In this document: piece by piece, positions 32,549 to 42,529 of the stretch | How positions within the stretch are numbered: the stretch's first letter is position 1 | Layout: every line of letters starts with the position of its first letter | Position numbers and translations under genes: made by a program | The notes under the pieces: generated by a model | What the model saw: the letters and a program-made list of their open reading frames with translations, nothing else | Database searches by the model: none | Told to the model about the DNA's origin: nothing | NCBI GenBank assembly: GCA_023251555.1 | Contig: JAHEYN010000005.1 | Coordinates: 56,828 to 120,827, forward strand | Source: Bacteroidota bacterium | GTDB lineage: Bacteria; Bacteroidota; Bacteroidia; AKYH767-A; JAHEYN01 | Direction: 5' to 3' | DNA length: 64,000 bases

Positions 32549-34312
32549 TTGATGCTGAAAAAAAATTACTTCTTACCGGCAATACTGCTAATGGCATGCT
32601 GCTGCTTCCTCTCTACTTTATTGTCCGCCCAAACCATTAACACCATAGCAGGTTCAGGACCAACAGGTAATGCTAATGGAAGTTATACCGGTGATGGGGG
32701 ACCTGCTACTGCTGCAACATTGAATCATCCGGAAGGGGTGGCAATTGATGCCAGTGGAAATGTGTATATAATAGATTTTAAAAATCATTGCATACGTAAA
32801 ATAACTGCCGGCACAGGCATTATCAGTACAATAACAGGAACGGGAGTGGGAGGGTATTCAGGTGACGGAGGCCTTGCTTCTGCTGCACAACTGAATTTTC
32901 CTAACGGGATAACCCTGGATGCGGCAGGAAATATATATATATCAGACTCCGGCAATCACCGCGTCCGCAAAATAGAAGCAAATACCGGTATTATACACAC
33001 TATAGCTGGAACAGGGCTACAAGGATATAATGGCGATGGAATTCCTGCAATAGCCGCTCAGGTTTGGTATCCTGTCGGACTGGCTGTTGATTCAATCGGA
33101 GATGTGTATGTAGCTGATCAGAACAATCACCGTATCCGGAAAATAGACACCAGCACAGGCGTTATCAGCACTGTAGCGGGAACCGGAACCGCCGGTTATA
33201 ATGGCGATGGAATTGCTGCCACAACTGCACAATTGAACTATCCCAATGGAGTGGCGCTTGATGTGGCAGGAAATATTTATCTGACAGACGGACTTAATCA
33301 GCGTATCCGGGAAATAACTGTAAGCACGGGCCTCATCAATACCGTAGCAGGAACAGGGACAGCCGGTTACAATGGAGATGGGATTGCTGCTGCAACTGCA
33401 CAATTGAATTTTCCTGATGGAGTAACTGTTGACGCAGCAGGGAATATATATACAGGGGAGGAATTCAGTTATCGCGTTCGCAAAATAGATGTAAACACTG
33501 CCATTATCAATACTATAGCTGGAACAGGAGTATGGGGATTTTCGGGTGACGGGGGTGCTGCCACTGCTGCAACGCTTTATTATCCAGGGGCAATAGCTAT
33601 CGACACATTATCCTGCAATTTGTACATAGCAGATGAAAACAATAACCGCATCCGATTAATTACAGGGCTCTGGGGCTGTACAGTGCAGCCGATAGAATGG
33701 GGTTCTTTTACAGGACGTCTCATCCAGTCCGAAAAACCCAGTGCCTCTCCAAACGGAGAGGTAAATGTTGTGTTGCTCAACTGGAGTACTGCGACAGAAA
33801 TAAACAACGATTATTTTACAATAGAAAGATCAGCACATCCCAACCTCCTGAACTGGGAGGCGATAAGTCAGGTTAAGGGTGCCGGCAACAGTAACAAGAC
33901 AAATGATTATCAATTCACCGATAATTCCCTGCCCACTGGGGAAGCTCAGCGTGAAGCGACCGGGTTTCTTTACTATCGCCTCAAGCAGGTTGACTACAAC
34001 GGAAGCTTCACTTACTCCAAAGTGATTTCAGTAAAAATTGAAAAATCAAACAGCTTAAAAATCGGGATCTGTCCCAATCCTGCTGCTGATATTATTACGC
34101 TTGAAGTCGGCCAGAACAAAAGAAATATGAAAATAGAAATTGAAATATATGATGTTCCTGGAAGAAAAATTATTCAATCCGAAATTACAAATCCAAAATC
34201 TGTCCCTTCCGGAAAATTCCAAATCAGTATTAGCTCTCTTTCAAAAGGAATATACTTCCTGAAAGCAACCAACGGAGTGGGGCAAACTCAAATTAAGTTT
34301 GTGAAAGAATAA
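32549..34312 (+). CDS. T9SS-sorted NHL-repeat beta-propeller surface protein
   Basis: 587 residues. Signal peptide (MMLKKNYFLPAILLMACCCF). Six NHL-type repeats of about 56 residues follow (about 30-375), each 'TIAGTGxxGYxGDGxxATAAQLxxPxGVAxDxxGNIYxxDxxNHRIRKI', fitting a six-bladed propeller. A linker domain (LLNWSTATEINNDYFTIERS ... GFLYYRLKQVDYNGSFTYSK) and a T9SS sorting domain end with GQTQIKFVKE. The last motifs are the same type as in the two preceding propeller genes but diverged. Likely co-transcribed with the helical-repeat gene before it. No catalytic motif is visible. Confidence 0.88.
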   Translation: MMLKKNYFLPAILLMACCCFLSTLLSAQTINTIAGSGPTGNANGSYTGDGGPATAATLNHPEGVAIDASGNVYIIDFKNHCIRKITAGTGIISTITGTGVGGYSGDGGLASAAQLNFPNGITLDAAGNIYISDSGNHRVRKIEANTGIIHTIAGTGLQGYNGDGIPAIAAQVWYPVGLAVDSIGDVYVADQNNHRIRKIDTSTGVISTVAGTGTAGYNGDGIAATTAQLNYPNGVALDVAGNIYLTDGLNQRIREITVSTGLINTVAGTGTAGYNGDGIAAATAQLNFPDGVTVDAAGNIYTGEEFSYRVRKIDVNTAIINTIAGTGVWGFSGDGGAATAATLYYPGAIAIDTLSCNLYIADENNNRIRLITGLWGCTVQPIEWGSFTGRLIQSEKPSASPNGEVNVVLLNWSTATEINNDYFTIERSAHPNLLNWEAISQVKGAGNSNKTNDYQFTDNSLPTGEAQREATGFLYYRLKQVDYNGSFTYSKVISVKIEKSNSLKIGICPNPAADIITLEVGQNKRNMKIEIEIYDVPGRKIIQSEITNPKSVPSGKFQISISSLSKGIYFLKATNGVGQTQIKFVKE

Positions 34313-34414
34313 GTTTTTAACTTTTTTGATGATTCTTGTTTTTATAAAGTTCTCTCCACAAAACTGATAAAAGTCATGCAGGAGACTGAGCGGGAACAGC
34401 GATCCGGTATTTGA

Positions 34415-34436
34415 ATATGCAGATATTTGCATATCT
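34415..34436. promoter_or_regulatory. candidate ArsR-family operator
   Basis: ATATGCA (34415-34421), 6 nt, TGCATAT (34428-34434) is a perfect inverted repeat; AGATAT/ATATCT (34421-34426/34431-34436) overlaps it. It ends 12 bases before the ATG of the ArsR-type regulator, the usual place for autoregulation. ArsR-family operators are typically AT-rich imperfect palindromes of this size. Confidence 0.6.
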
Positions 34437-34448
34437 GAATATCCGGTC

Positions 34449-34754
34449 ATGAAACCAACAGACAATTCCATTAAAGAAATTACTGAGGTTGTGAAGGCTT
34501 TGGGGCATCCGGCCCGTTTGGAAATCCTTCTTCTTCTCAATCATAAAAAAGGAAACTTATCTGTAACAGGTATTCAGGAAAAGCTTGACCTGACTCAACC
34601 TGAAACCTCCAGGCATTTAACAGTGATGAAAAATGCTGCAGTTCTGAGTTGTAAAAAAGTTGGTTCCAGTGCTTTCTATTCGGTCAATGACAGTTTCCCG
34701 TTTATCCGTTGTATAGCATTATGTATCAGGAGGCACAGCGTAAAAGACAAATGA
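34449..34754 (+). CDS. ArsR-family winged-helix transcription regulator
   Basis: 101 residues with the ArsR pattern: VVKALGHPARLEILLLLNHK, helix-turn-helix VTGIQEKLDLTQPETSRHLT, then a beta-wing (AVLSCKKVGSSAFYSV). No metal-binding CVC motif is present, so a metal sensor of the classic ArsR/SmtB alpha3 type is unlikely; several Cys occur near the C-terminus (FIRCIALCIRR). First gene of the six-gene operon; its stop overlaps the next ATG by four bases (ATGA). A palindrome just upstream is its probable autoregulatory site. The signal sensed is unknown. Confidence 0.9.
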   Translation: MKPTDNSIKEITEVVKALGHPARLEILLLLNHKKGNLSVTGIQEKLDLTQPETSRHLTVMKNAAVLSCKKVGSSAFYSVNDSFPFIRCIALCIRRHSVKDK

Positions 34755-35719
34755 AAAAGAAAAGTGAAATATTGATAACCAAAGCATCAGGGGAAGCTAT
34801 CCCCTTTTCAGCAGACAAGCTAAAACACTCATTGGAAAGAGCCGGAGCGGATGATATGCAGGTGGAAAGAATTGTGGAAGAAATAAGCAGCAGGCTGTAT
34901 GAAGGAATTTCGACAAAGAAAATATACCGTATTGCTTTTAACCTGCTTAAAGAAAACTCACGGCATCTCGCTGCAAAATATAATCTGAAGCGGGCTATTA
35001 TGGAATTGGGGCCTTCAGGATATCCATTTGAAAAATACATAGGGGAAATTTTACGCTGTCAGGGATATCAGATTACAGTGGGGGAAGTTGTTCAGGGGCA
35101 ATGCGTAAACCATGAGATTGATGTGATAGCACAGATAGACCACCAGCATTTTATGATAGAATGTAAATATCATAACCAGCCCGGAACATTCTGTGATGTC
35201 AAGATCCCTCTGTATATACAGGCAAGATTCAAGGATGTGGAGTCTCAATGGGTAAAATTACCGGGGCACGGAACTAAATTTCACCAGGGATGGGTGGTTA
35301 CCAATACACGATTCTCATCTGACGCCCTGCAATACGGAAATTGTGCGGGACTTAAACTTCTGGGATGGGACTATCCCGTAAAAGGCGGGCTGAAAGACCT
35401 TATTGACACTCTCGGGCTTTACCCTGTCACCTGTCTTACCACACTTGGCAAAACAGAAAAGCAGCACTTGCTGGATAAGAAAATTGTGCTTTGCAAGGAA
35501 ATATGTGATAACGAACAATATCTGGTTCAGGCAGGCGTAACCCCGGCAGGAATTAAAAATGTTCAGGAAGAATGCCGGCAGCTCTGTCAGCATTTAATTG
35601 AAAACACAAAACAACAGGAAACGAATAAGCTATCACGCTCTCCCGAAGGACAAAACTGCAAATCTGTTGAAAAGCAGATGCAGCCTCAGACACCACGCCT
35701 GCCAAACGAAACAGCATGA
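34751..35719 (+). CDS. ATP-cone domain fused to PD-(D/E)XK (Mrr-like) nuclease
   Basis: 322 residues from the ATG at 34751, which overlaps the ArsR stop. Residues about 1-85 (ILITKASGEAIPFSADKLKH ... ISTKKIYRIAFNLLKE) form an ATP-cone, the nucleotide-sensing domain of ribonucleotide reductases and NrdR. Then FEKYIGEILRCQGY, HEIDVIAQI and HFMIECKYH give the E, D and E-x-K of a restriction-endonuclease-like fold. The C-terminal part (about 240-290) is helical and HhH-like. A nuclease gated by ATP/dATP levels is a reasonable inference. The stop overlaps the next ATG (ATGA), so translation is coupled with the beta-CASP gene. No activity is known to me for this architecture. Confidence 0.85.
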   Translation: MKKKSEILITKASGEAIPFSADKLKHSLERAGADDMQVERIVEEISSRLYEGISTKKIYRIAFNLLKENSRHLAAKYNLKRAIMELGPSGYPFEKYIGEILRCQGYQITVGEVVQGQCVNHEIDVIAQIDHQHFMIECKYHNQPGTFCDVKIPLYIQARFKDVESQWVKLPGHGTKFHQGWVVTNTRFSSDALQYGNCAGLKLLGWDYPVKGGLKDLIDTLGLYPVTCLTTLGKTEKQHLLDKKIVLCKEICDNEQYLVQAGVTPAGIKNVQEECRQLCQHLIENTKQQETNKLSRSPEGQNCKSVEKQMQPQTPRLPNETA

Positions 35720-37095
35720 TGACAATAAACAGCAACATTAAAATTCATTTTTTAGGGGCTGCCGGAACTGTTACCGGTTCTAAATACCTTATTCAGGCAC
35801 CCGGAAAAAATATCCTTGTGGATTGCGGTTTGTTCCAGGGATTAAAACAGCTTCGTTTGCTGAACTGGAACCACCTTCCTGTGAATGCAGCTAAAATAGA
35901 CCACGTATTACTTACACACGGACATCTCGACCATACCGGTTACCTTCCGCGTTTGGTTAAATCAGGATTTAGCGGTCCTGTATGGGGAACCGAACCAACA
36001 CTTGAAATCGCAAAGATAATCCTTGAGGACAGTGCAAAAATTCAGGAAGAAGATGCAGAAAGAGCTAATGCCACCGGTTTCTCCAAACATAAGCCCGCCC
36101 TGCCCTTATACAACTTAAAAGACGTAGAAAAAACCCTGCCGTATTTCTTTCCCCAACCCCTTGATAAGTGGCTGGAAATCGGAGAGGAGATTTATTGCCG
36201 TTACCGCTACAATAGCCATATCATAGGGGCAACATTCATTGAGTTAAAAATAAATGATAAAGTAATTGTTTTTTCAGGAGACATTGGAAGGGAGAATGAT
36301 TTACTCATGTATCCGCCTCAAAAGCCTGAAGCTGCAGATATTCTTTTTATTGAATCTACTTACGGAGATCGCCTGCACCCCGATCATCCGGAGGAACAGT
36401 TATCCCAAATAATAAATAATGCAGCCGGAAGGAATGGCACTACTATCATTCCCAGCTTTGCTGTTGAACGAACCCAACTGCTCATGTACATGCTGTATCA
36501 GCTGAGAAGGGAAGGCAGGATACCGGGTATTCCTGTCTATATGGACAGCCCGATGGGAAAAAATGTACTGGATATATTTCATCACAATACAGAATGGCAC
36601 AAACTGTCTTCCGGGCAGTGTGCCGAAATGTGCAAGGACATAAAACGCATTGAAACAATTCAGGAATCATTAAAACTGACTGCCGACAAGAGTTCAAAAA
36701 TAGTTATTGCCGGAAGCGGCATGGCTTCCGGGGGACCTGTACTTACGTGGTTCCGGCAATATATCGGTAATCCAACAGCGACCATATTGCTGGCCGGCTA
36801 TCAGGCTGAAGGAACAAGGGGAAGGCAATTACTGGAGGGTGCGAATGAAGTTAAATTATACGGACAATATTATAAGGTAAGAGCAAAGATCGAAAATGTG
36901 CAGGGGTTGTCTGCTCATGCCGACCAGAAAGGACTGCTTGACTGGATGAGCCGGATAAAAAATAAGCCGGATAAAATTTTTATTGTGCATGGGGAGCCTC
37001 ATTCAGCTGATGCGCTCAGGGTAAAAATAAAAGATGTGTATGGCTGGGATTGCGAAATCCCCGTATTAAATGAATGCATTGCACTGAATCTTTGA
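35716..37095 (+). CDS. metallo-beta-lactamase/beta-CASP RNA-processing nuclease-like protein
   Basis: 459 residues. MBL motifs: LLTHGHLDHTGYLP (HxHxDH), YNSHIIGAT and SGDIGREND. The beta-CASP and RMMBL parts show ESTYGDRLHP, AGSGMASGGPVLTWF, GLSAHADQ and FIVHGEPHSADAL. The overall type is that of CPSF73-like/YsH1 bacterial homologues, which are endo/exo-ribonucleases. Translationally coupled to the ATP-cone nuclease upstream (4-nt overlap); the AMP phosphorylase gene starts 3 bases after its stop. Expected role: RNA cleavage releasing nucleotides or oligonucleotides. All metal ligands appear intact. Confidence 0.92.
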   Translation: MMTINSNIKIHFLGAAGTVTGSKYLIQAPGKNILVDCGLFQGLKQLRLLNWNHLPVNAAKIDHVLLTHGHLDHTGYLPRLVKSGFSGPVWGTEPTLEIAKIILEDSAKIQEEDAERANATGFSKHKPALPLYNLKDVEKTLPYFFPQPLDKWLEIGEEIYCRYRYNSHIIGATFIELKINDKVIVFSGDIGRENDLLMYPPQKPEAADILFIESTYGDRLHPDHPEEQLSQIINNAAGRNGTTIIPSFAVERTQLLMYMLYQLRREGRIPGIPVYMDSPMGKNVLDIFHHNTEWHKLSSGQCAEMCKDIKRIETIQESLKLTADKSSKIVIAGSGMASGGPVLTWFRQYIGNPTATILLAGYQAEGTRGRQLLEGANEVKLYGQYYKVRAKIENVQGLSAHADQKGLLDWMSRIKNKPDKIFIVHGEPHSADALRVKIKDVYGWDCEIPVLNECIALNL

Positions 37096-37098
37096 AAA

Positions 37099-38616
37099 AT
37101 GCAAATGGAGCACGAACACACCAATAATACGCTGAAAGTAAAAAATCTCGGTATTGATACCTACCGTGAAAATATTGTTTTCATGCGGGCCGATTGCCAT
37201 ATATGTCAGTCTGAAGGATTTACGGCCTTAACACGAATAATTGTCCACCATAATGACAAAAGCATAATAGCCACGCTCAATGTGGTTCATTCCGAACTGC
37301 TTCGTCACGATGAAACTGCATTGTCAACTGAAGCCATGAAAAGATTATCCGTCAAAGACGGTGACTGTCTGACGTTTTCTCACCTGGAGCATATTGATTC
37401 TTTAAGTTATGTACGGGCAAAAATGTATCACAATGAATTAAGTGAACAACATTTTAAGGAAATAATAACCGATATAGCGGCAGGCAGGTATTCCAACATT
37501 GAACTTGCCGCTTTTATTTCTGTTTGCTCTGACGACAATCTTTCCATGAATGAGATCACCGGCCTGACAAAGGCCATGATTTCTGCAGGACAAAGAATAC
37601 AGTGGAATGATGCTGTTGTTCTCGATAAACATTCTGTTGGCGGTCTGCCTGGTAATCGCACCACTCCTGTTGTGGTGAGTATTGTTTCGGCAGCCGGCTT
37701 AACAATTCCGAAAACATCTTCAAGAGCTATTACTTCGCCCGCCGGAACAGCCGATACAATGGAGACAATAGCTCCTGTAAACCTTGGACTGGATGAAATC
37801 AGGCAGGTAGTGGAAAAGGAAAACGGTTGTATTGTCTGGGGTGGCGCTGTAAAGTTAAGTCCGGCAGATGATATTATCATCTCGGTGGAAAAATCACTGG
37901 ATGTAGACAGCGAGGGACAAATGATAGCTTCAGTATTATCAAAGAAGGCTGCGGCAGGAGCTACTCATGTACTTATTGATATTCCCGTAGGAGAAACCGC
38001 CAAAGTACGTTCTTCTGAAAATGCAGAACTGCTACGGGAACACTTCGAGGTGGTTGGAACGGCAATAGGCCTGAAGGTAAAAGTGATATTAACAGATGGC
38101 TCACAGCCGGTAGGCAGAGGTATTGGTCCGGCACTGGAGGCAATGGATGTTTTATCTGTTTTAAGAAACGAACAAACCGCCCCGGAGGATTTGAAAGAAA
38201 AATCCATCATGCTGGCCGGTATATTGCTTGAACTGACCGGCAAGTATCCCGGGGGAACAGGGGAGCAAACTGCCAAAGAAATCCTTGAAAGCGGGACTGC
38301 GTGGAAAAAATTCAAATCTATCTGTAAAGCACAGGGAGGCTTTAAAGAACCCGGCTATGCAAAATACAAACACGATGTTTTAGCCGAAAAAGAAGGAACC
38401 GTAAAAACGATTGATAACCGGAGGCTGGCACGGGTGGCAAAGCTGGCCGGCGCACCCAAATCACCATCCGCAGGTATTTTGTTTTTATCTCCCGTTGGTA
38501 AAAAAGTGAAGCGGGGAGAAACATTATTTACAATCTATTCAGAAGCCCAAGGGGAGCTGGATTATGCTATCAGGTACATGAAAAGCAATAATGACATTGT
38601 AAAAATACAGGCATGA
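37099..38616 (+). CDS. AMP phosphorylase / archaeal-type thymidine phosphorylase
   Basis: 505 residues. The N-terminal ~85-residue barrel-like domain is the extension that separates AMP phosphorylases from ordinary DeoA. The core carries LDKHSVGGLPGNRTTPVVVS (phosphate-binding; NRTT is characteristic of the archaeal type), SSRAITSPAGTADTME and GGAVKLSPADDIII. The archaeal enzymes convert AMP and phosphate to adenine and ribose 1,5-bisphosphate; bacterial homologues are usually annotated as thymidine phosphorylase. The next gene, a PRPP synthetase, overlaps by four bases. No RuBisCO or ribose-bisphosphate isomerase is seen in the window, so the fate of the product is open. Confidence 0.92.
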   Translation: MQMEHEHTNNTLKVKNLGIDTYRENIVFMRADCHICQSEGFTALTRIIVHHNDKSIIATLNVVHSELLRHDETALSTEAMKRLSVKDGDCLTFSHLEHIDSLSYVRAKMYHNELSEQHFKEIITDIAAGRYSNIELAAFISVCSDDNLSMNEITGLTKAMISAGQRIQWNDAVVLDKHSVGGLPGNRTTPVVVSIVSAAGLTIPKTSSRAITSPAGTADTMETIAPVNLGLDEIRQVVEKENGCIVWGGAVKLSPADDIIISVEKSLDVDSEGQMIASVLSKKAAAGATHVLIDIPVGETAKVRSSENAELLREHFEVVGTAIGLKVKVILTDGSQPVGRGIGPALEAMDVLSVLRNEQTAPEDLKEKSIMLAGILLELTGKYPGGTGEQTAKEILESGTAWKKFKSICKAQGGFKEPGYAKYKHDVLAEKEGTVKTIDNRRLARVAKLAGAPKSPSAGILFLSPVGKKVKRGETLFTIYSEAQGELDYAIRYMKSNNDIVKIQA

Positions 38617-39491
38617 AACCCATTGTATTTTCACTGCCCGGAAACGAAGATTTAGCCCATCGCATAGCTAAATCAATACAGGCTGAATTAGGAGAAACCA
38701 TTATCCGGCGTTTCCCTGACGGAGAATCTTATGTGCGTGTGATAAGCAAAGTAAAAAACCGAAAGGTGATTATAGTATGCGCCCTGAATAACCCCGATGA
38801 AAAATTACTGCCTTTATATTTTCTCTCAAAAACATTGAAATCATCAGGTGCTGAATGCATATGCCTTGTTGCACCCTATTTAGCTTATATGCGGCAGGAT
38901 AAGGTCTTTAACGAGGGGGAAGGAGTTACTTCCGGATACTTCGCTTCACTTCTTTCAGGTTTTGTTGATTCTCTTATTACGATTGATCCCCACCTGCATC
39001 GCAGGCATTCCATGTCAGAAATTTATTCAATTCCCTGTCAGGTGATCCATGCATCTCCGGTTATCTCAGCATATATAAGTGAACATGTAATCAATCCGCT
39101 GCTGATTGGCCCTGACTCAGAGAGTGAACAGTGGGTTTCAGAAGTAGCCCGGAATGCCAGTGCTCCCTTTATCGTACTTGAAAAAACAAGGCTGGGTGAC
39201 AAAGATGTTAATGTTACGGTTCCCAACCTTGAAAAATTCAGGGATCATACGCCTGTATTGGTGGATGATATTATCTCAACAGCACAGACTATGATTGAAA
39301 CAGTGAAGCATTTGAAAAACGCAGGAATGAAAGCGCCTGTTTGTGTTGGAGTTCATGCAGTATTTGCTGGAAATGCTTACGAAGAATTAAAGAAATCAGG
39401 AATAAACAAAATCGTTACCTGCAATACCATTCCTCATTTGACCAATGGAATTGATGTTACAGAACTCATTTCAAAGAACAGCAAAATATAA
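38613..39491 (+). CDS. ribose-phosphate pyrophosphokinase (PRPP synthetase), archaeal-like
   Basis: 292 residues. Family motifs are present: RFPDGESYVRV (ATP site), YLAYMRQDKVFNEGE (conserved RQDK), TIDPHLHRRHSM (catalytic His) and the PRPP-binding loop LVDDIISTAQTMIE. The loop has Ala-Gln where most enzymes have Gly-Gly, and Ser in place of the usual Asp, the latter as in archaeal enzymes. Short size and lack of the long bacterial regulatory loop also point to the archaeal class. The ATG overlaps the AMP phosphorylase stop. The enzyme makes PRPP and AMP from ribose 5-phosphate and ATP; the AMP is a substrate of the neighbour. Confidence 0.9.
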   Translation: MKPIVFSLPGNEDLAHRIAKSIQAELGETIIRRFPDGESYVRVISKVKNRKVIIVCALNNPDEKLLPLYFLSKTLKSSGAECICLVAPYLAYMRQDKVFNEGEGVTSGYFASLLSGFVDSLITIDPHLHRRHSMSEIYSIPCQVIHASPVISAYISEHVINPLLIGPDSESEQWVSEVARNASAPFIVLEKTRLGDKDVNVTVPNLEKFRDHTPVLVDDIISTAQTMIETVKHLKNAGMKAPVCVGVHAVFAGNAYEELKKSGINKIVTCNTIPHLTNGIDVTELISKNSKI

Positions 39492-39502
39492 AAACCTCTA
39501 AA

Positions 39503-40498
39503 ATGAACAGAAAAAAGAAATCTAAAATAAAAAAGATTGCAGTAATGACTTCAGGAGGAGATGTTCCCGGACTGAATGCGTGTATAAGATCTGTAGTAAG
39601 AACTGCGATATTCAACCAACTGGAAATCGTTGGCATACAGCACGGGTTTGAAGGTTTGATTTCGGGAGATTTTATTCCTATGAATGCAGGCACGGTCAGC
39701 AACATTATTCAGCTCGGAGGTACAATACTGAAATCTTCCCGGAGCGCGCGATTTAAAACCAGAGAAGGACGACTGGCAGCATATAAGCAAATTAAAAAAG
39801 AAAATATAGAAGCCATTGTTTTAATTGGCGGAGACGGTTCATTTGAGGGAGCAAACGCATTTACCAGAGAACACGATATTCCATTCATAGGCATTCCCAA
39901 AACCATTGATAATGATATTTCGGGTACGGAGATATGCATTGGTTACGACACAGCACTTAATACCGCTACTCAGGCATTAGATAAAATAAGAGACACGGCA
40001 CAGTCGCATGAACGAATTTTTGTCGTGGAGGTAATGGGCAGGGATTCGGGATACATAGCTTACGGGGCAGGACTTGCCGGTGGAGCTGAAGCCATCATGG
40101 TTCCTGAAACAAGGGCAGATGAGAAAAATCTTCAGCAGGTTCTTAAGCAAGGCTGGAACAGGAGCAAGTCTTCATTGATAATAGTAGTGGCTGAAGGCAA
40201 TGAAAGCGGAGGAGCGTTGAAAATAGCGGAAAGGGTTAAGAAATACATGCCCTCAAATTATGTTGGCGTTTGCATATTGGGACATATACAGCGGGGAGGA
40301 AGTCCATCTGCGGCCGATAGAATTTTAGCCTCTAAATTCGGATTTCATGCGATCGAAGGACTCCTCATGGGTAGAAGAAATGTGATGGTAGGCTTTAAAA
40401 AAAATGAAATCTGTTTTACTTCCCTGCACCGGATTAAGCGGCACCACCTCGACATTAATAAACATCTGCTGAAAATGATAACAACCTTAACAAGCTGA
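39503..40498 (+). CDS. pfkA: 6-phosphofructokinase (PfkA family)
   Basis: 331 residues. TSGGDVPGLNACIRSVVR (start of the phosphate-binding region), IGGDGSFEGA with Gly112 (E. coli Gly104, linked with ATP use), and PKTIDND with catalytic Asp136 and Lys133 (E. coli Gly124; Lys is typical of PPi-dependent enzymes). The donor is therefore probably ATP, as in other mixed-type enzymes, but this must be tested. Substrate motifs VMGRDSGYIA and GHIQRGGSPSA are intact. It starts 11 bases after the PRPP synthetase gene and closes the operon. It could be a second, stress-linked phosphofructokinase or act on another sugar phosphate. Confidence 0.92.
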   Translation: MNRKKKSKIKKIAVMTSGGDVPGLNACIRSVVRTAIFNQLEIVGIQHGFEGLISGDFIPMNAGTVSNIIQLGGTILKSSRSARFKTREGRLAAYKQIKKENIEAIVLIGGDGSFEGANAFTREHDIPFIGIPKTIDNDISGTEICIGYDTALNTATQALDKIRDTAQSHERIFVVEVMGRDSGYIAYGAGLAGGAEAIMVPETRADEKNLQQVLKQGWNRSKSSLIIVVAEGNESGGALKIAERVKKYMPSNYVGVCILGHIQRGGSPSAADRILASKFGFHAIEGLLMGRRNVMVGFKKNEICFTSLHRIKRHHLDINKHLLKMITTLTS

Positions 40499-40536
40499 AA
40501 CAAAATTCATAACCAAAGGGAAAACCGGGTGTCTGC

Positions 40537-40544
40537 TATTTTTG
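40537..40544 (+). promoter_or_regulatory. candidate -7 element of ispH
   Basis: TATTTTTG matches TAnnTTTG and lies 51 nt before the ispH start. A matching -33 element is not clear. Confidence 0.45.
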
Positions 40545-40595
40545 CCGCATTCTCCCCATGGCAGCAAATCTTTTTTTATTTTAGAGCCTGCTTTC

Positions 40596-41837
40596 ATGAA
40601 AACATTTAACATACCCGCATTTTACAGGAGTTCCATCATCTCCTTCATCAAGGAGGTTCGTAAAAACCAGGATCCGAGAAAAAAGGATTATTCCCCCACC
40701 CTGCTCGACTTCGGTCCGGTGTGCTTCTATATTGCAAGGCATTTCGGATTCTGCTACGGTGTAGAGAATGCAATTGAGATTTGCTACAAGGCTCTTGCGG
40801 ACAATCCGGGGAAAAGAATCTTTCTCCTGAGCCAGATTATCCATAATCCCGAAGTGAATAATGACCTGCTGAGCCGGGGGCTGCGCTTCCTGATGGACAC
40901 ATCCGGCCAGCAGATCACACCATGGGAAATGCTGAACCCTGATGACATCGTAATTATTCCCGCATTCGGCACAACACTCTCCATAGAAGAGAAGCTCAGA
41001 AAACTCGGAATAAAAATTCACCTTTATAATACCACCTGCCCGTTCGTGGAACGTGTATGGACAAAGGCGGAGAAGCTGGGTAAAGAAAATTATACCATCG
41101 TAGTCCATGGAAAATACAACCACGAGGAGACACGCGCAACATTTTCACGCAGTGAGCAGAATGCCCCTTCCATCATTATAAAGGACATTCACCAGGCAAG
41201 GAGGCTTGCGTCAATCATTCTCGGGGAGATTCCGCCGGATGAATTTTATTCCCTGTTTAAAGAAATGTACTCCCCTGGCTTTGATCATGTGACAGACCTT
41301 GAAAGGATTGGCGTCATCAACCAGACTACCATGCTTGCCACAGAGACGCAGGAAATAGCTGATTTCTTAAAAGGTGTGATGCAAAAAAAATACGGGGAAG
41401 AAAATATAGCCGATCATTATGCCGATACCAGAGATACGCTTTGCTACGCCACCAATGAAAATCAGGAGGCGACATACGGGCTGCTGAAACAAAAGGCGGA
41501 TCTCGCTATTGTTGTAGGCGGCTATAACAGTTCCAACACCTCACACATTGTTGAGCTCTGCGAGCAAAAACTTCCGACTTACTTCATTTCATCCGAAAAA
41601 GAAATTCTTTCCGGGAATCAGATCAGGCATTTTAATTTTCACAGCCAGGAACTGATGACCTCCGGAAATTACCTCCCGGGCACTGTACCGGTACGTATCA
41701 TCCTCACCAGCGGAGCCTCATGCCCCGACACCATCGTTGAAAATGTACTGAAGAAGATTCTGGGATTTTTCGAAAACAGTAAAAGCGTGGAAGATGTCCT
41801 GGATGAGCTTGAATGCCGCTACCTGTCAGGATCCTGA
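40596..41837 (+). CDS. ispH: 4-hydroxy-3-methylbut-2-enyl diphosphate reductase
   Basis: Last step of the MEP isoprenoid pathway, an iron-sulfur enzyme. From the ATG at 40596 the protein has 413 residues, the longer form found in Bacteroidota and plastids, with an N-terminal extension of ~45 residues and an insert. The three cluster cysteines are visible in HFGFCYGVENA, NTTCPFVERVW and SGASCPDTIVEN; the substrate His/Glu occur in VVHGKYNHEETRAT, with NQTTML and SNTSHIVELC also conserved. It converges on cmk with a 19-bp overlap of coding ends. A TAnnTTTG element lies 51 nt upstream. Confidence 0.94.
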   Translation: MKTFNIPAFYRSSIISFIKEVRKNQDPRKKDYSPTLLDFGPVCFYIARHFGFCYGVENAIEICYKALADNPGKRIFLLSQIIHNPEVNNDLLSRGLRFLMDTSGQQITPWEMLNPDDIVIIPAFGTTLSIEEKLRKLGIKIHLYNTTCPFVERVWTKAEKLGKENYTIVVHGKYNHEETRATFSRSEQNAPSIIIKDIHQARRLASIILGEIPPDEFYSLFKEMYSPGFDHVTDLERIGVINQTTMLATETQEIADFLKGVMQKKYGEENIADHYADTRDTLCYATNENQEATYGLLKQKADLAIVVGGYNSSNTSHIVELCEQKLPTYFISSEKEILSGNQIRHFNFHSQELMTSGNYLPGTVPVRIILTSGASCPDTIVENVLKKILGFFENSKSVEDVLDELECRYLSGS

Positions 41838-42529
41838 TTTTCAAGAAGACGAACGGCAAACTCCAGCTGCTGTTCCTCGCTGAGAAATGAATTGTCAAGC
41901 ACGACGGCATCCGGAGCCTTTAGGAGAGGGCTTTCCTCCCGGTGAGTATCTTCATAGTCGCGGGCAGATACATTTGTCCTTACCTCATCCACCGTTATAT
42001 TTATTCCTTTGGCCTTCAATTCATTAAACCTGCGGCGTACGCGGATTTCGGGGTCGGCAGTCATAAACAGCTTCAGTTCCGCATCCGGGAAAACAACCGT
42101 TCCTATATCACGGCCGTCAAGAATCACGCCTTTCCCCTTACCCATTTCTTTCTGGAGTTCCACCATTCGCTTCCTCACCTCCTTCACAGCACTCACCCTG
42201 CTGACCAGTGCGGCAACGGGCATACTTCTTATTTCCTTTTCAACATTTTCACCGTTCAGGTGTATCTCCGAAGTTTCTTTCCCGGGAGTCATCCGGAAGG
42301 AGAGGTCAATATCCCTGAGTGTGCTAGCGATAAGGGATGCAGAAGCAAGTATTTTCTCCGCTCCCAGGCGGAGGAGATAAAGTGTAACTGCGCGGTACAT
42401 GGCGCCTGTATCAATGTATTTATATCCCAGTTTTTTCGCGAGGGCTTTGGCAAGAGTGCTTTTCCCGCAGGAAGAGTAGCCGTCAACTGCTATGGTAATT
42501 TTTTTCACTTGCTTGTTTTCCGTATGCAA
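41819..42529 (-). CDS. cmk: cytidylate kinase
   Basis: 236 residues; phosphorylates CMP and dCMP. P-loop GYSSCGKST (17-25), IDTGAMYRAVTLYLL, LDGRDIGTVVFPDAELKLF and the lid/NMP region NVSARDYEDTHREESPL are all typical. Length is normal. Its start overlaps the end of porQ by 25 bases, so it is downstream in a porQ-cmk transcript. The 3' end overlaps the ispH end. Confidence 0.95.
   Translation of the reverse strand: MHTENKQVKKITIAVDGYSSCGKSTLAKALAKKLGYKYIDTGAMYRAVTLYLLRLGAEKILASASLIASTLRDIDLSFRMTPGKETSEIHLNGENVEKEIRSMPVAALVSRVSAVKEVRKRMVELQKEMGKGKGVILDGRDIGTVVFPDAELKLFMTADPEIRVRRRFNELKAKGINITVDEVRTNVSARDYEDTHREESPLLKAPDAVVLDNSFLSEEQQLEFAVRLLENQDPDR

Follow-up and report, generated by a model that had tools for sequence, protein, structure and literature searches.

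Six intact open reading frames, all on the plus strand, occupy positions 34449-40498 of the window (the whole 64,000-nucleotide stretch of DNA analysed here), and they encode, in order, an ArsR regulator, an ATP-cone nuclease, a beta-CASP protein, a phosphorylase, a PRPP-synthetase-like (PRS-like) protein and PfkA (Table 1). The junctions measure -4, -4, +3, -4 and +11 nt in gene order, and all the frames, 4-nt overlaps and 3-11-base gaps given in a preliminary description of this DNA were recovered. Separate promoters between the genes, which that description had named as evidence against a single unit, were not indicated; promoter-like and terminator-like sites within the unit were not above shuffled expectation. 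The next gene, ispH, has its ATG at 40596, about 97 nt downstream of the operon.

Table 1. Genes of the operon and its candidate operator, in window coordinates
Feature	Position	Strand	Length and basis
Operator-like inverted repeat, candidate ArsR site	34415..34434	.	ATATGCA-N6-TGCATAT just upstream of arsR
ArsR/SmtB-family repressor	34449..34754	+	101 aa; HTH_5/ArsR profile match
ATP-cone + Mrr/PD-(D/E)XK nuclease	34751..35719	+	322 aa; profile matches, relative of AF1548 (PDB 1y88)
MBL beta-CASP nuclease	35716..37095	+	459 aa; profile matches, best solved relative RNase TTHA0252
NMP (AMP) phosphorylase-type protein, "thymidine phosphorylase family"	37099..38616	+	505 aa; profiles, motifs, tree
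PRPP-synthetase-like protein, NF005537 subfamily	38613..39491	+	292 aa; profile, motifs
ATP-type 6-phosphofructokinase PfkA	39503..40498	+	331 aa; profile, residue comparison

The operon was compared with 90 related loci from Bacteroidota, Verrucomicrobia, Proteobacteria and CPR, the 80 named loci being the best relatives and not a random sample. A PRS-like gene was found near the phosphorylase gene in 79 of the 90 loci (all on the same strand, 68 within 30 nt) and a beta-CASP gene in 59 (54 on the same strand, 37 within 30 nt), so the co-occurrence across phyla that had been proposed as a check was indeed observed. The PRS-like gene was not near the phosphorylase in the other 11 loci, and a PRS-like protein elsewhere was above the cut-off in only three of 13 genomes or records checked. 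Since this synteny holds across phyla, a chance grouping is untenable, and the operon is confirmed as a genuine unit, part of which is common to many unrelated bacteria. In two points the grouping described earlier is not supported: ArsR lies outside the conserved part, and the loci with the ATP-cone nuclease are mainly of the Bacteroidota type.

The ArsR protein matched the HTH_5/ArsR profile at 35.7 bits (cut-off 22) and carries a C88-x3-C92 pair that is also present in the orthologue of the nearest relative, L043. The inverted repeat upstream of arsR, a candidate ArsR site, overlaps a second one (CAGATAT-N4-ATATCTG), and an A+T-rich inverted repeat with ATATTTGCATA lies at the arsR start of L043; an arm of at least 7 arose in 133 of 1000 mononucleotide shuffles of the candidate operator, which makes the repeat weak when taken alone. 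The nuclease matched both ATP-cone (31.4 bits, cut-off 25.8) and Mrr_cat (30.7, cut-off 21), and its EID and ECK motifs were conserved in 23 of 23 cluster members. That it may be "ATP-sensing" is suggested by the ATP-cone domain alone.

Both Beta-Casp (109 bits, cut-off 27.7) and RMMBL (77.8, cut-off 21.6) profiles matched the third protein, and the metal-ligand motifs HGHLDH, H, SGD, SAHAD and VHGE are recognisable in its sequence. Its MBL, beta-CASP and RMMBL architecture is that of RNase TTHA0252 (E = 1e-67) and also that of archaeal aCPSF1/FttA, although the archaeal N-terminal extension is absent, and it scored under the cut-offs of the aCPSF1 and Cas14 models. The pairing of a nuclease with a beta-CASP protein, as in type VII, could suggest an anti-phage or CRISPR-related module, and Cas14 of type VII (NF045584) was in fact the nearest NCBIfam equivalog model. 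However, the score of 373 bits is far under the cut-off of 800, no repeat array was found in 33000-42000 around the operon, and the PADLOC matches had weak, generic-domain scores; on these grounds a CRISPR/defence identity was rejected, and we find such a module scarcely conceivable.

The phosphorylase passed the archaeal-type models NF003338 (687.8, cut-off 434) and TIGR02645 (617.9, cut-off 434.6) and narrowly missed the AMP phosphorylase equivalog TIGR03327 (509.8 against 535), for which reason we call it NMP-phosphorylase type. The loop GG-x-PGN-(K/R)-T was found in 90 of 91 phosphorylase members and PKTSSRAITS-x-x-GTAD in 85, whereas none of the 91 had the pyrimidine-phosphorylase motifs GG-x-GD and GTxDK. 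The motifs of the window protein are also present in the solved structure 4ga5, and the tree placed the phosphorylases apart from the PyNPs with a support of 100/100. A thymidine phosphorylase identity was rejected by these motifs and the tree, and the earlier assignment to the archaeal AMP phosphorylase type rather than the thymidine/pyrimidine type is borne out as a prediction from profiles, motifs and tree. NMP phosphorylases of the archaeal type have been described in archaea and in Rubisco-bearing bacteria, and the family argues strongly that the window protein would convert NMP and phosphate to base and ribose 1,5-bisphosphate (R15P), as does the relative from T. kodakarensis (PMC9700705, PMC8376864). 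No assay of a bacterial member of these operons was found in the literature.

The archaeal NMP shunt, or pentose bisphosphate pathway, consists of NMP phosphorylase (TK0352 in T. kodakarensis), R15P isomerase and type III Rubisco. The operon has the phosphorylase family and presumably the NMP-to-R15P step in common with it, but adds the PRS-like, beta-CASP, nuclease and PfkA genes, and its genome, which is 97% complete, contains no Rubisco and no IF-2B family protein or R15P isomerase (TIGR00511 was likewise without match). With both enzymes absent, the archaeal route was rejected for this genome, and the recycling scheme put forward earlier loses that outlet for R15P. No R15P isomerase exceeded the cut-off in any of 42 phosphorylase-bearing genomes or records. 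Another known route is that of PhnN, which converts R15P and ATP to PRPP, and in Variovorax the phosphorylase is fused with PhnN; the operon's genome, in contrast, has no PhnN. PhnN was above the cut-off in five of 49 genomes and was rejected as a general R15P sink for the other 44.

The PRS-like protein matched NF005537 at 404 bits (cut-off 322); N- and C-terminal phosphoribosyltransferase-type domains and the adenine-nucleotide site (FPDGE, RQD) are present, and it also retains the two positions at which PRPP synthetases have their metal ligands. Its pyrophosphate loop reads PDSESEQW and its R5P loop DDIISTAQTM. PDxESxQW was found in 77 of 78 cluster members, where the canonical pyrophosphate loop is PDxG(G/A); the PRS of B. 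septentrionale, a relative of the B. diazoefficiens one, is without it. Because the loop is replaced in this way and a separate canonical PRS is encoded elsewhere in the same genome, the protein is unlikely to be the plain PRPP synthetase of the preliminary description, and the feeding of the phosphorylase with AMP from this enzyme becomes doubtful in turn. It could still be a genuine PRPP synthetase whose product serves to re-use the freed bases in ordinary salvage, the loop altering regulation only, as the intact active-site motifs FPDGES, RQDK, DPH and K-x-R and the best solved relative, M. jannaschii PRPP synthetase (E = 2.6e-46), would suggest; but the loop replacement, the canonical PRS already present and the lack of any recognised base phosphoribosyltransferase among the recurrent neighbours make such salvage unlikely, if not far-fetched. 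A bolder idea, which we consider quite improbable, is that the protein is a new enzyme using R15P as a truncated PRPP and passing the C1 phosphate to AMP (R15P + AMP -> R5P + ADP, with adenylate kinase leading to ATP), in which case the Glu-Ser pair found instead of the loop glycines would occupy the space left by the absent distal phosphate.

PfkA matched PFK at 351 bits (cut-off 30.9) and PFKA_ATP at 391.5 (371.35), and it keeps GGDG (Gly104) and the catalytic Asp127. Position 243 (E. coli numbering), whose arginine contacts the phosphate of fructose 6-phosphate, is Gly in the window PfkA and its one orthologue and Arg or Lys in 30 other PfkAs compared; by this residue comparison the window PfkA is one that has lost a substrate-phosphate arginine (R243G). 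It is the sole PF00365 protein of its genome. PfkA is present in nine related loci, to which it was probably recruited twice, and in seven of the nine PfkA-bearing genomes it is a paralogue apart from the housekeeping copy. The association with PfkA, proposed to link the product to glycolysis, thus recurs, but PfkA alone cannot connect R15P to it, and R15P isomerase, Rubisco and PhnN are absent from this genome. R15P has been described as activating phosphofructokinase in hypoxic mammalian cells, and a possibility is that it acts also on the dedicated PfkA.

The neighbours of the related loci include recurrent genes for D-lactate dehydrogenase, universal stress proteins (USPs), phosphoketolase, acetate kinase and metal-pump ATPases. 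Flavobacteria combine PfkA, D-lactate dehydrogenase, SDR, USP, ATP-cone, beta-CASP, phosphorylase and PRS-like genes, Kangiella-type gammaproteobacteria combine phosphorylase, PRS-like, beta-CASP, acetate kinase and phosphoketolase genes, and phosphoketolase or type II GAPDH lies nearby in Rhizobiales and Acidovorax loci. Terms for the operon's genes were absent from the Myxococcus NmpRSTU regulon paper, and a search for the PFL family gave no match. In Bradyrhizobium diazoefficiens, phosphorylase, PRS and MBL also form one unit (bll3117-bll3116-bll3115), which is raised in microoxia in a FixK2-dependent manner and has a FixK2 box at -74 (PMC6515984, PMC9104804); the available parts of these papers name only the three genes and describe no function for them. 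As fermentation and stress neighbours recur and this core is a microoxia-induced FixK2 target, a module for nucleotide catabolism at low energy or low oxygen is supported, a reading that we hold at even confidence. R15P formation by the T. kodakarensis relative, the Variovorax fusion with PhnN and a haloarchaeal AMP phosphorylase gene flanked by USP genes count in its favour, and the narrow miss of TIGR03327 and the 11 loci with no PRS-like gene close by count against it. The nucleotide-to-sugar-phosphate recycling proposed earlier fits these neighbours and the microoxia data in its low-energy role, but its PRPP synthetase and PfkA steps are not supported in the form proposed.

In such a module, the ArsR repressor would release the operon on a thiol-, metal- or redox-type signal, the beta-CASP enzyme would degrade nucleic acid, mainly RNA, to 5′-NMPs as its family suggests, and the ATP-cone nuclease would perhaps join the degradation when the ATP/dATP balance shifts. 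The phosphorylase would split the NMPs with phosphate to base and R15P, and the PRS-like protein would handle R15P or PRPP with an adenine nucleotide, giving ribose 5-phosphate, PRPP or both. For the pentose phosphate, the way into fermentation would be the dedicated PfkA in this operon and, in relatives, D-lactate dehydrogenase, phosphoketolase and acetate kinase; on balance, surplus NMPs would yield phosphate and carbon when adenylates accumulate as AMP.

AMP itself might be the point of the operon, which would then serve mainly to safeguard the adenylate energy charge by draining off AMP, a task that falls elsewhere to AMP nucleosidase or AMP deaminase, and would store PRPP for adenine salvage at a later time, with nucleic-acid degradation secondary. 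The phosphorylase and PRS-like pair is tighter than the nuclease link (79 against 59 of 90), and genes for USPs, which bind adenylates, recur beside the phosphorylase, including in an archaeon, where two of them flank a haloarchaeal AMP phosphorylase gene. Against this, a beta-CASP gene so close to the phosphorylase in 37 loci is too regular for a bystander, and the T. kodakarensis enzyme takes any natural NMP, and one report found that it prefers CMP (PMC8376864); we give this alternative a minor chance. The inducing cue may be metal stress, because many loci lie among copper or heavy-metal efflux genes: 705-aa-class P-type ATPases were found in 36 of 89 loci, RND pumps in 17 and MerR in 12, and several plasmid copies of the cluster adjoin copper oxidases or copper pumps. 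The C-x3-C pair of ArsR would also suit an accessory of metal (copper) resistance islands, in which ArsR senses metal and the enzymes repair or recycle nucleotides freed by metal stress. Yet no metal gene lies inside or adjoining the window operon, and the sole relative with expression data is driven by oxygen through FixK2, so that an accessory of this kind seems very unlikely.

The NMP-phosphorylase step is widespread, also on plasmids, in bacteria without its known partners, and the PRS-like active site is rebuilt alike in nearly every copy, which together with the absence of those partners points to an undescribed use of R15P. If the transfer from R15P to AMP were true, it would form with the phosphorylase a new substrate-level phosphorylation, drawing ATP from the NMP glycosidic bond, and starved or oxygen-deprived cells would burn RNA for energy. 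Under the low-energy nucleotide-catabolism reading, a list of microoxia-induced genes of unknown purpose would fall into place as a pathway that leads from RNA to fermentation and can be put to the test.

The six-gene unit picked out in the preliminary description was confirmed as real and is spread more widely than the sequence alone could tell. All six genes are intact and closely packed in a host genome of 2.84 Mb (97% complete), ispH starts about 97 nt beyond the operon end, and the operon's G+C content of 42.8%, against 45.1% for the window, indicated that the composition is not strongly foreign. Type IX secretion tails were found on proteins neighbouring the operon and, together with the relationships of its phosphorylase, assign the genome to Bacteroidota. 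The first gene encodes an ArsR regulator with a C-x3-C pair that its nearest relative also has; near the arsR start, both carry an inverted repeat rich in A+T. In Bradyrhizobium, the three-gene core of phosphorylase, PRPP-synthetase-like (PRS-like) and MBL-type genes (bll3117-bll3116-bll3115) is tied to low oxygen and FixK2 in two reports (PMC6515984, PMC9104804).

Profile scores and solved relatives identified the operon phosphorylase as the archaeal type, in which the loops PGN(K/R)T and TSSRAITS replace the pyrimidine-phosphorylase motifs. It was split with full support from the pyrimidine-nucleoside phosphorylases of the same phylum, and its own kin are Bacteroidota, where the family is rare and scattered (three of 297 sampled genomes above the TIGR02645 cut-off, the window genome counted). 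On plasmids, 158 records carried a relative at E <= 1e-5, the weaker matches including ordinary thymidine phosphorylases, and 108 did so at a coverage of at least 80%. One relative lies in a record, MT836048.1, that may be a mislabelled bacterial contig rather than a bacteriophage. No Rubisco gene was annotated within 8 kb of the Natrialba magadii plasmid AMP phosphorylase.

The neighbourhoods were compared in 90 loci, comprising plasmid records, anonymous relatives and 80 named loci from one public-genome scan that represent the best relatives and not a random sample. The PRS-like gene was present in 79, always on the same strand and in 68 at 30 nt or less, and the beta-CASP gene in 59. The ATP-cone nuclease was found in 22, nearly all of Bacteroidota; the phosphorylases of the one verrucomicrobial and one gammaproteobacterial locus that also carry it cluster with flavobacterial ones, which favours transfer between phyla. 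The flavobacterial order is PfkA, D-2-hydroxyacid dehydrogenase, SDR, universal stress protein (USP), ATP-cone nuclease, small protein, beta-CASP, phosphorylase, PRS-like, unknown protein, heavy-metal-type P-type ATPase and MFS; the Kangiella-type order is phosphorylase, PRS-like, beta-CASP, small protein, acetate kinase and phosphoketolase. These neighbours are fermentation and stress genes. Two families without a Pfam match recurred, one of 84 aa in 9 loci and one of 214 aa in 14, for the most part in loci of the Bacteroidota type.

The operon nuclease combines an ATP-cone and an AF1548-like Mrr domain, and the EID and ECK motifs are intact in all 23 members. The operon's beta-CASP protein, which is closest to TTHA0252, is a complete MBL protein of the RNase type; its motifs are readable by eye, and the lower motif counts across the set reflect narrow search patterns. 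The type VII effector Cas14 may have arisen from near this bacterial family.

Coordinates of the features discussed (window or compared locus)
Feature	Location	Remark
NHL-repeat protein	window 32549-34312	171-nt tandem repeat, type IX secretion tail
Beta-CASP protein	window 35716-37095	closest NCBIfam equivalog model is type VII CRISPR Cas14, score well under cut-off
PfkA	window 39503-40498	sole PF00365 protein of the genome
84-aa family	L050:8330-8581	within core
214-aa family	L056:12392-13033	directly after core
Phosphorylase relative H41	MT836048.1:5348-6844	full-length, 49.7% identity, 99% coverage; labelled bacteriophage, human faeces
Natrialba magadii AMP phosphorylase	L162:7062-9715	plasmid; flanked by two USP genes
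Variovorax protein annotated PhnN	L035:11242-13395	plasmid; fusion with NMP-phosphorylase-type protein

The solved T. kodakarensis relative converts nucleoside monophosphates (NMPs) to ribose 1,5-bisphosphate (R15P) (PMC9700705, PMC8376864), and the Variovorax fusion supports R15P as the phosphorylase product. No PRS-like gene was found on that plasmid, a hint that PhnN and the PRS-like protein may stand in for each other. Neither an IF-2B protein nor Rubisco was found in the 97% complete window genome, no R15P isomerase scored above cut-off in 42 genomes or records, and PhnN occurred in only 5 of 49 genomes; the PRS-like protein would thus be the best candidate for the missing R15P-using step. 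It retains FPDGES, RQDK, DPH, K-x-R and the DD of the R5P loop, with PDxESxQW as the pyrophosphate loop in 77 of 78 sequences and mostly STA(R/Q/H)T in the R5P loop; the second PRS of the window genome has the canonical APDMGG and DTAGT. Loop roles are presumed by reference to B. subtilis PRS. Because Arg or Lys occurs at this position of the R5P loop in other phosphoribosyltransferases too, the pyrophosphate loop was given more weight. The R5P-loop assignment is backed by an E. coli PRS structure (PMC6332680).

PfkA lies in or directly beside the cluster in nine genomes, and in seven of these it is distinct from the housekeeping copy. The nine form two groups, the window with the L043 relative and flavobacteria with Verrucomicrobia, requiring a minimum of two gains or losses; a single origin appeared in only 6% of bootstrap trees, with no supported branch contradicting it. 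With residue roles assigned by reference to E. coli PFK-1, the flavobacterial cluster copies have the effector site rewritten at the R21, K211, K213 and H215 positions. R243 (E. coli numbering) is Gly in the window PfkA and its closest orthologue (L144), a replacement that may have changed the substrate preference of the window enzyme.

The earlier proposal that PRS-made AMP feeds the phosphorylase while PfkA connects its product to glycolysis is doubtful. No description of the whole module was found in the literature searched, most subscription journals lying outside its scope. Low-energy nucleotide catabolism is the best reading of the operon's role, with about an even chance of being right, and the novelty sits in the chemistry of the PRPP-synthetase-like protein and PfkA.
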